Assembly: GCA_001007665.1 (NCBI GenBank)
Contig: JXQG01000016.1
Span: forward strand, 1-35,886
From: Candidatus Synechococcus spongiarum SP3
GTDB taxonomy: Bacteria > Cyanobacteriota > Cyanobacteriia > PCC-6307 > Cyanobiaceae
Direction of reading: 5' to 3'
Length of the DNA stretch: 35,886 nucleotides
Shown: in pieces, positions 14,858 to 17,665 of the stretch
Numbering within the stretch: the first letter of the stretch is position 1
How the letters are laid out: each line of letters starts with the position of its first letter
Notes under the pieces: generated by a model
Told to the model about the DNA's origin: nothing
Seen by the model: only the letters and a program-made list of their open reading frames with translations
The model's database searches: none
Program-made: the position numbers and the translations under genes

Positions 14858-15203
14858 ATGGCGGTAAACAGCAACAAGCCAGAACAGTGGAAGCAGGACG
14901 TTGCGGCTTCGGTTGACATGTACAACAATTGGCTCATGCGCTCTGCGCCAGCGGCATTCAGGCAGACGCCAGATCAGACCACACAGGAAGTAGAGAATAT
15001 GGCTTGTTATGACCCGAAATCTGACCAATGTGGGCGTTGATCTGCTAAAGAAGGAACCTTCGGTGTTGTCGTCGTTGAGGATGTCTACGTGCCCGCCATT
15101 GGCGAGGGACCGGCTGATCGGTCTCGCAGGTGTTTCCAAAAATCCTGTCAGAACCATGGAAAAATTTGGGGCTTACATACATAAGTGCCCACCTTCTTTC
15201 TGA
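14858..15203 (+). pseudogene. XamI-like type II restriction endonuclease, truncated and frameshifted
   Basis: The ATG at 14858 opens MAVNSNKPEQWKQDVAASVD, followed by MYNNWLMRSAPAAF and QTTQEVENM, the N-terminal pattern of XamI-type endonucleases as I recall it. The frame dies at a TGA (15038-15040), but the match continues in another frame from about 15009: LTNVGVDLLKKEPSVL, then MSTCPPLARDRLIGLAGVSK and TMEK. The match ends near 15168, and the frame closes at 15203. So a single indel near 15005 breaks the gene, and roughly two thirds of the protein, with the nuclease core, is gone. No partner methyltransferase is in the window. The matching part ends at GGGGCTTACATACATAAG, possibly an IS end. 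Confidence 0.72.
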
Positions 15204-15430
15204 CTGAAGTCTTATGGGTCTCAATTTAGACACGCTTTTGAGCAGTTTGCGTGATCCAAAATTGACACCATTTTTCCAAATGGCTAATCAGCATTTTCCC
15301 AATGTAATTAATTCAATTTTTCCAAATAAATTTTATTCAAATCTGAAATAATCAGCTATTTTATAGCATAAAGTATTTGACAATCGGCCACATTTAATTT
15401 ATAGTAGCTCTCAAATATTCTCTCGAAAAC
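15204..15430. other. AT-rich junction between restriction-gene fragment and ISXO2 relic
   Basis: This stretch is strikingly AT-rich against its GC-rich surroundings (for example the run of A/T around 15296-15365). It holds no gene. It probably belongs to the leading end of the ISXO2-type element or to older foreign DNA. The transposase N-terminus follows at 15431. Confidence 0.5.
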
Positions 15431-16147
15431 GTGAGTCGTACAGGCTCGGGTAAGTCCCACCGTGAAGGAATAATATTCATTCAGCTAATTATGCCATATC
15501 GCTGCCGTGAATTGAATTGCCACAAGCGGTTCAGCACTAGGGCGAGCACCGTCATGGAGTTCTCCAAACTGGCATTTCAGATATGGGCCATTGCAATTTT
15601 CCTCATTTCGACTATCTTGACGGGGATTTCCAACATGAAGCTACACCGTAACCTTGGCATAACGCAGAAAATAGCTTGGTTCCTTGCCCGTCGGATTCGG
15701 GAAACTTTTGACTTTGCATGGTTGCCTGGATTTCATGGACTTGTCCAAGCTGATAAAACCTTCATTGGTGGCAAACGCAAGAATATATCCCACGAAAAGC
15801 GCGGGGGATTGAGTGGCAGAAGGACAACAGGCAAGGCGGTTGTTGCTGGTATCAAAGAGCATACAACAGGCCAAGCCAGAGCAATGGTGGTTAACGGCAC
15901 AGATTCAGTGACGCTACAGGGCTTTGTGAGATATAATGCAGAATCAGGCACTACGGTCCACACAGATGAAGCACTGGCACATCAAGGTATCTTCCACAAG
16001 ACCAGCCCTGAACATCTAAACCGCTATGCAAGTGAATTTGCAGGTCGTCATAACATTTGCTTCCTGGATACTGTGGAAATGACGCTTAAGATGATAGCTG
16101 GAATGGAAGACAAGCAGCTGTGGTACATAGAGTTGATAGATTGGTGA
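15431..16147 (+). mobile_element. ISXO2/IS1595-type transposase with two internal deletions
   Basis: The 238-residue frame aligns in order with ISXO2-like transposases, which run to about 310 residues. The N-terminal GKSHREGIIFIQLI is followed directly by MPYRCRE, so about 40 residues with the first half of the zinc ribbon are missing. FSTRASTVMEFSK, MKLHRNLGITQKIAWFLARR and the DDE-start ADKTFIGGKRKN are present. After VHTDEALAHQG the sequence jumps to IFHKTSPEHLNRYASEFAGRHN, losing the family's HTNGxESFW region with the last catalytic position. Both deletions keep the frame open. The element should be inactive. A possible left end is GGGGCTTACATACATAAG at about 15169; no matching right end was seen. 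Confidence 0.82.
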
Positions 16148-16398
16148 CAAGAGGTATAACAGTTTGATTCGTGGCATAGGATATTGAATACTGAAGACAT
16201 TATCAAGATCGTGATCGAGTGAAGGTATTGGGAATCAAGAGCCAATGTCCTGCACAAGACCGACGGCGGTCAATCGGTCCACGGTCAAACTCCGTGTCAC
16301 CCCATCAGGGGCCAATTGAGCAACAGCAAGGTGCGAACGAACACTGCCTTCGACCAGTGCTGTGCTAGACTGGCAGTTCACGAGTTTGGGGGCAGCTA

Positions 16399-17307
16399 GT
16401 GGCGATCCGGAACACACTTGACGCAGTGACAGTCAGAGGCTTCAAGACCGTCAAGGCGCTGGAAGCCTTCGATCCGAGACACTTGACGGCGTTGATCGGC
16501 GCCAACGGGGCGGGAAAGTCCAACTTCATCTCGTTTTTTCACATGTTGAGTCGGGCGCTCTCCGGCCCGGAAAATCTGCCGCTCCATGTTGGCCAGCAAG
16601 GTAGCGCCAGCGCACTCCTGCACGACGGACGGGAAACGACGCGAGAAATCGAAGCGGAACTCACGCTGCACGCGGTCTAACCAGGCTGGTAGGAACCAAT
16701 ATGCATTCAGGCTGTTCTACGGCGCCAACGACACTCTGGTTTTTGTAGAAGAAAAATACCGCTTCCTGCGTAGCGGCCATCCGAAACTGGAGAACTGGGG
16801 TAACAATCGGAGCCAGCCATGCTTCACCGCGAATTGTGGCAACCCTGCAGCTCCTGCTTCCATTCTTTGTGGATTTCGACCTCGAACCAAGCCACAACAA
16901 GGTCCTCCTGTGCTGGCGGGAGCACAACTCCAACTGCGTCTTCAGTGTCGCCCAGGCCTCCGACGGCATGCTCCCGTGCTATCGCTTTGGTCACGCTGCT
17001 CCTGCAGCCGCACGAGGACTTGCCCGATGTGCTCATTCTCGACGAACCTGAACTGGATCTCCATCCTTATGCAATCAATGTAATCGGGGACCTGATTCGA
17101 TCTGTTGCCCAGGTCGTACAAGTTATCGTTGCCCCACAGTCCACCCTGCTGACTGATTGCTTCGAGTCGGAGGAAATCGTGGTAGTGGGGCGCGATGGTC
17201 GTGCGTCTTCTTTCAAGCGTCTCGAAGAAGAGCCGCTGACCGAATAGCTCAAAGAATACTTCATCTCCGAGTTGTGGGAGAAGAACATCGTGGGGGGAAG
17301 GCCTTGA
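16399..17307 (+). pseudogene. AAA ATPase (RecF/OLD-like), multiply frameshifted
   Basis: Pieces in three frames read as one AAA-family ATPase of the type paired with DUF4276 proteins. Frame 1 from GTG 16399 gives VTVRGFKTVKAL and Walker A LIGANGAGKSNF, then ends at 16680. Frame 2 gives NQYAFRLFYGANDTLVFVEE (about 16690). Frame 3 gives LLPFFVDFDLEP, VLLCWREHNSNCVF and ASDGMLPCYRFG (about 16850-16990). The first frame then resumes with TLLLQPHEDLPDVLILDEPE, containing Walker B, then DLHPYAINVIG and VIVAPQSTLLTD. A TAG at 17245 interrupts EEPLTE and LKEYFISELWEKN, and the true end is a TGA at 17305. At least three indels and one nonsense change make it dead. Confidence 0.78.
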
Positions 17308-17665
17308 GCGGTATCCGTCGTTTTACCTGTTCCACCTCCTGGATGTCCTTCCCTGGTTACCATGCCACGTCTGGCCTTGACCCGAGCAGCCGGGCAATCA
17401 CTTTGAAGAACGCCGTACTAGAGGAAATTGGAGACCATAGGCTTGTGCCCTGCATCCAAGTTCATGAATTTGAGGCACTGGTACTTGCCGACCCCGCAGA
17501 CTCCCAAGCGCTGTTGAGCGAGTACTCCACGCCCGCGTCCGGTATGCGTCGACAGGAAAACGACCTCCGGTCTGAACGTCACAAGGCGGATCGGCTTGCC
17601 AGAGCTACGGGATCAATCTCCTCACTTTGGCGTGTGGGTGGACAGGCTTGAGTCACTGGGATCAT
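17308..17665 (+). pseudogene. DUF4276 (TOPRIM-like) partner of the ATPase, decayed
   Basis: Right after the ATPase relic, one frame gives FPGYHATSG, LKNAVLEEIGD and VPCIQVHEFEALVLADPAD (about 17340-17510), the middle of DUF4276 proteins, including the HEFEAL motif. The match continues in another frame as GLPELRDQSPHFGVW and VDRLESLG (about 17590-17660), like the family's C-terminus. The first 60 or so residues are absent. ATPase plus DUF4276 gene pairs occur in defence loci (RloA/RloB- or AbiL-like in layout), so this looks like the second half of a lost defence module. The name of the exact system is inference. Confidence 0.65.

Follow-up and report, generated by a model that had tools for sequence, protein, structure and literature searches.

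The relic-bearing stretch between an ABC-F ATPase gene and the uspA and pgk genes in the genome studied here is, with good probability, a composite graveyard that arose by insertion and rearrangement, and not a defence island that was dismantled. We consider this the best explanation of the locus; it includes an OLD/PARIS-type function of an ATPase–DUF4276 gene pair, HEC-01, which is broken here and intact elsewhere in the same genome.

The window (the whole stretch of 35,886 nucleotides that was analysed) is contig C116 of the 2.13-Mb draft genome G000, which belongs to the genus of Candidatus Synechococcus spongiarum LMB bulk15M and the MAG CAR3_bin_5. An earlier note on this DNA had proposed a host-associated symbiont, and the shared genus with LMB bulk15M agrees with that. 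The comparisons drew on other genomes of the genus, among them G003, G004, G005, G007 and G009. Profile searches were made against Pfam and PADLOC, and DNA was compared by blastn.

The relic block and the interrupted XamI gene

On the left, the block is flanked by the intact ABC-F ATPase gene (12988–14748, plus strand; Pfam ABC_tran and ABC_tran_Xtn), the product of which is 83–92% identical to proteins from eight other genomes of the genus, and on the right by the intact uspA (minus strand; PF00582) and pgk (plus strand; PF00162) genes at 19331–21000. Between the end of ABC-F and the start of uspA/pgk (14748–19331) there are no intact genes, and no RNA element was found in the relic block by an Rfam search. 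The components named in the earlier note, that is, a XamI fragment, an ISXO2 relic, a frameshifted AAA ATPase and a DUF4276 relic, were all recovered by the Pfam and PADLOC profile searches, with matches far above chance. The note had ended the block at 17665; it extends further, as a pgm (phosphoglucomutase) pseudogene, consisting of a 35-bp junction piece and a 3' part, runs from 17665 to 18396 (plus strand; PF24947, 7.8e-35, and blastn), followed by a second IS relic at 18699–19335 (plus strand) with a DUF772-type transposase piece (PF05598) and 28-nt imperfect terminal inverted repeats.

Several features of the surroundings were also observed. A Mutator-family transposase relic lies to the left of the block (12171–12863), and the order of the genes surrounding tRNA-Arg/ABC-F varies across the genus (window 12860–14775 compared with loci L062–L068), marking a rearrangement-prone neighbourhood. 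As a result of this variation there is no simple empty ABC-F site by which the block could be dated. Farther away, a minus-strand frame at 2277–4727 matches a B12-dependent ribonucleotide reductase in its insertion and alpha domains only, with no catalytic part reported there.

The XamI restriction endonuclease is represented by a 5' fragment of about 100 codons with one frameshift (14858–15165, plus strand). Its two frames, 14858–15034 and 15018–15164, match the PADLOC REase_II profile (6.4e-11 and 6.8e-12, respectively) at consecutive positions, 2–46 and then 53–101 of 315, and the second frame also contains the RE_XamI domain PF09572 (1.7e-16, above the cut-off, positions 2–50 of 256 only). 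Across the XamI/IS section the G+C content drops from approximately 0.63 to 0.45. At the DNA level the fragment is 84% identical to an intact, methylase-paired XamI gene in a sister genome (G003, contig C72), and this homology ends at 15165. In G003 the complete gene (320 aa) is followed by a 526-aa methylase gene, and the operon has an O-methyltransferase gene on one side and a 92-bp ABC-F tail, in inverted orientation, on the other. Unlike this type II restriction–modification (R-M) system, the window retains only the N-terminal codons: the gene is lost beyond approximately codon 102 and the methylase gene is gone as well, hence the system is incomplete. No homologue of the XamI methylase was found in the window genome, and among the searched genomes of the genus only G003 has one. 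A smaller XamI relic occurs in G005, flanked by the same O-methyltransferase gene and by tRNA-Arg/ABC-F, and no XamI traces were found next to the window genome's own O-methyltransferase gene. The simplest reading is that of one ancestral XamI operon in the O-methyltransferase/ABC-F neighbourhood, several times lost or broken; it looks to be the only system here that was truly lost.

The adjacent IS1595 (ISXO2-like) relic occupies 15167–16147 (plus strand), with a transposase fragment at 15431–16147 (PF12762, DDE_Tnp_IS1595, 1.1e-16). A related IS1595 element elsewhere in the genome (contig C22) carries terminal inverted repeats of 37 nt that contain GGGGGCTTACATACGTGAGTACCCA. In the window, GGGGCTTACATACATAAGTGCCCA is read from about 15168, and the left repeat to which it belongs (approximately 15167–15192) extends the element to about 15167. 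The domain and this repeat are those of the IS1595 family, whereas the right end and a part of the transposase are missing; no right terminal repeat was found in the window, so that the repeats are not paired. In the window genome there are 14 pieces related to this relic. As the terminal repeat starts at about 15167, directly after the end of the XamI homology (15165), the XamI gene was interrupted by this element.

Two copies of the HEC-01 pair and the pgm junction

The ATPase and DUF4276 pieces of the window have their best PADLOC matches in the profiles of HEC-01, a candidate system of PADLOC-DB formed by an AAA ATPase (HEC-01A) and a DUF4276 protein (HEC-01B). The HEC-01A pseudogene (16399–17310, plus strand; PDLC04175, and an alignment with three other copies) matches the HEC-01A profile at 16411–16671 (1.0e-23) and 16975–17304 (6.6e-32), and its pieces match Pfam AAA_21 (1.1e-6 and 1.9e-7). 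The HEC-01B pseudogene (17307–17664, plus strand; PDLC04188) matches PF14103 (7.1e-7, with a second piece at 17554–17652) and the PADLOC HEC-01B profile (4.6e-11). Compared with intact copies, HEC-01A has suffered a 213-bp deletion, frameshifts and an in-frame TAG, and HEC-01B, deletions of 223 bp and about 135 bp and the loss of its stop codon. Thus, frameshifts, deletions and stops leave neither gene of the window pair open and complete.

Both genes are open and full-length on contig C27 of the same genome (7521–9904), where HEC-01A (370 aa) matches PDLC04175 at 6.4e-124, and HEC-01B (246 aa) matches the PADLOC HEC-01B profile at 4.5e-72 and PF14103 at 1.9e-53. Window positions 16222–17699 are colinear with C27:7521–9512 in four blocks of 80–89% identity. 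The first block (16222–16828 against C27:7521–8118, 84%) includes a region upstream of HEC-01A (16222–16398, plus strand), and the stretches of 213, 223 and about 135 bp that separate the blocks on C27 were deleted on the window side. The identity is 84–89% in HEC-01A and about 80% in HEC-01B. An intact pair with full-length profile matches is also present in G009. In gene order, families and full-length profiles the C27 and G009 pairs are members of HEC-01, and the window pair is a broken member; what distinguishes HEC-01 in this genus is its attachment to a pgm fragment that lacks the 5' end, and its position next to pgm. DUF4276 genes occur in nine of ten genomes of the genus.

Among intact copies of HEC-01A dN/dS is 0.16–0.22, and between intact copies of HEC-01B it is about 0.5 (0.52), indicating weak constraint. 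For HEC-01B (alignment A1; L004:4816–5484) dN/dS is well above that of the partner ATPase, and diversification of the effector is possible. On the window branch, HEC-01B has accumulated 11 synonymous and 31 non-synonymous changes, as neutral drift predicts; the 27 synonymous and 29 non-synonymous changes in HEC-01A lie between the constrained and the neutral expectation and are not decisive.

The dS of HEC-01A between the window and C27 is 0.285, and that of ABC-F between the window species and the nearest relative compared is 0.305; for C27 and G009 the respective values are 0.386 and 0.395. As the dS values of HEC-01A are close to those of ABC-F, they fit vertical inheritance since the ancestor of the genus, together with an old duplication. 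Outside the genus, the nearest HEC-01A proteins (63–69% identity) belong to MAGs of Latescibacterota, Chloroflexota (Dehalococcoidia and Caldilineaceae) and Acidobacteriota, several of which are, judging by their project names, presumably sponge-associated. These relatives indicate gene exchange.

The pgm piece following HEC-01B (pgm') begins at an identical pgm codon in the window, C27 and G009. As this junction is common to all three copies, the window copy is probably a displaced and decayed duplicate. The window pgm' is 91% identical to the intact pgm of the same genome, which is situated on contig C11, where an autotransporter-like gene relic comes next. The pair on C27 is followed by a different pgm pseudogene, which is 85% identical to the genome's own pgm and closer to the pgm genes of G004 and G009; the sequence downstream of it occurs, within the window genome, on C11 and C27 only. 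These differing affinities reflect either unlike histories or gene conversion.

In G009 (contig C19) intact pgm is followed by an autotransporter-like gene, a SIR2-like gene, HEC-01A, HEC-01B, pgm' and, last, mnmA. We named the autotransporter-like gene and mnmA from their translations and not from database matches, the former having no match in Pfam. In G004, pgm is directly joined to the mnmA-bearing DNA that lies downstream of pgm' in G009. At this G009 locus (L051, G009:C19:64683–73844), pgm and pgm' share 99.7% identity over the 627 bp at their 3' ends, which suggests a recent duplication or gene conversion. A stretch inserted in the G009 pgm' contains, as noted by eye, a nucleotidyltransferase-like frame on the opposite strand. 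On the evidence of these sequence comparisons, the HEC-01–pgm' unit appears to have begun beside pgm, two copies now being elsewhere in the window genome, and the second pgm seems to have arisen through one crossover or a tandem duplication.

Predicted function of the HEC-01 pair

A structural model of HEC-01B built from 32 relatives has a mean pLDDT of 92.7. The invariant residues include H125/E126/E128 and, in the first strand, an EGxTE motif; D79 (numbering of alignment A1) is nearly invariant. The closest solved structures are the nuclease (Toprim) domains of OLD proteins, 6nk8 (Z 9.4) and 6njx, and the model matches the PARIS complex (8ux9_A) with Z 7.6, a range that the tool calls common. 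Foldseek with the same model gave no match to the Toprim fold below E 0.001, the sequence search for solved DUF4276 relatives gave nothing significant, and a literature search in one library found no paper on DUF4276. Based on the model, DUF4276 is predicted to adopt an OLD/PARIS-like Toprim nuclease fold, and a predicted Toprim-like fold is thus now available for this effector.

PARIS (AriA/AriB) systems are the proposed class 4 OLD systems, in which an ABC-type ATPase and a Toprim-like nuclease are encoded by separate genes (PMC10568477, PMC12409363). In HEC-01 the two proteins are likewise encoded by separate genes, and its putative nuclease would be Toprim-like, according to the predicted model with its moderate matches. 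HEC-01A matches AriA profiles weakly (4.7e-27) but scores far better as HEC-01A (6.4e-124), and the effector is a DUF4276 protein, with PADLOC matches to HEC-01B profiles only, and not AriB (DUF4435). From the predicted fold and the gene order, our best guess is that the intact pair is most likely an ATPase–nuclease defence system of the OLD/PARIS type. HEC-01A, an ABC-type ATPase, would sense infection and release or activate HEC-01B, and the latter, as a Toprim-fold nuclease, would cut nucleic acid, halting phage growth. The C27 pair would be active.

Possible histories of the locus

The favoured history, a graveyard composed by insertion and rearrangement, would have proceeded as follows. 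A XamI R-M operon located by the O-methyltransferase gene and ABC-F would have been cut by IS1595 after approximately codon 102, and the remainder of XamI and the methylase would subsequently have been lost. HEC-01 would ancestrally have been situated just downstream of pgm in the genus; a second pair, with its signature 5'-truncated pgm fragment, would have landed beside the IS remnant and then decayed, while the intact paralogue persists on C27. The order of these events is the one that we infer. Against this explanation stand the differing affinities of the two pgm' pieces, the weak constraint on HEC-01B and the modest structural matches of its model.

The two HEC-01 copies could instead stem from separate acquisitions, with different strains of the genus as donors, the window copy being the older one. 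In this case the inter-copy dS of 0.285, which is near the between-species level, the patchy distribution of HEC-01 and the affinity of the C27 pgm' to the pgm of G004 and G009 would be accounted for. However, dS is lower between the two G000 copies than between either of them and G009 or G007 (0.37–0.43), and the sequence downstream of the C27 pgm' is otherwise found only beside the genome's own pgm; we regard separate acquisition as unlikely, if a serious competitor. Far less credit is due to errors of assembly or base calling that broke genes intact in the organism. The window is a draft-assembly contig and indels are part of the damage, but deletions of 135–223 bp, an IS end replacing most of XamI and the absence of a whole methylase gene are not base errors, and the flanking ABC-F, uspA and pgk genes are intact. 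The large deletions and the IS end rule out sequencing error as the cause of the large lesions, and make such an origin of the block extremely improbable. All the relics are dead, as the earlier note held: they have large deletions as well as frameshifts, hence these are not base-calling errors. Some slight chance is left that the block was assembled from mixed strains.

The reading of the earlier note was that of a real island of defence systems, at least two, which decayed as pressure from phages or gene flow relaxed in a symbiont confined to its host. The membership in the genus of Ca. Synechococcus spongiarum, the absence of XamI R-M from the genome and the death of both relics speak for this, as does the low defence diversity of some host-restricted pathogens, the cause of which is unresolved (PMC9252829). 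On the other hand, the same genome keeps, in a census of defence genes that is an incomplete sample, the intact HEC-01 pair, SoFic, a full-length type I R subunit (1073 aa) and the type I-G cas genes Cas1, Cas3g and Cas56g. HEC-01A has a dN/dS of 0.16–0.22, DUF4276 is present in nine of ten congeners, the HEC-01A relatives indicate gene exchange, and sponge metagenomes are reported to be enriched in defence genes, including restriction–modification and CRISPR (PMC5099237). We therefore find relaxed pressure very unlikely as the explanation. The fossils are indeed those of two defence systems, XamI R-M and HEC-01, yet the lineage has lost only the former. Nor is one ancient island supported, as relatives place XamI by O-methyltransferase/ABC-F and HEC-01 by pgm. 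Intact counterparts exist for XamI in G003 and for HEC-01 in G009, where HEC-01 sits by pgm; the gene order around ABC-F differs among the genomes.

That host-restricted bacteria have reduced defence is, as a general hypothesis, reasonable but not yet settled (PMC9252829); this locus is no evidence for it. Under the favoured history of insertion and rearrangement, the locus reflects ordinary gene turnover and not a symbiont giving up its defence: what looked like the loss of HEC-01 concerns a spare copy, which shows why fossil islands have to be judged against the whole genome rather than from one stretch. As a more speculative suggestion, about which we are doubtful, pgm and pgm' may serve as direct repeats around the HEC-01 cassette, so that homologous recombination between them would be enough for its insertion, amplification and movement, no recombinase being needed, and the window would hold one discarded product. 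If true, this would provide a testable route for the movement of defence genes in sponge symbionts, beside a part-duplicated housekeeping gene.
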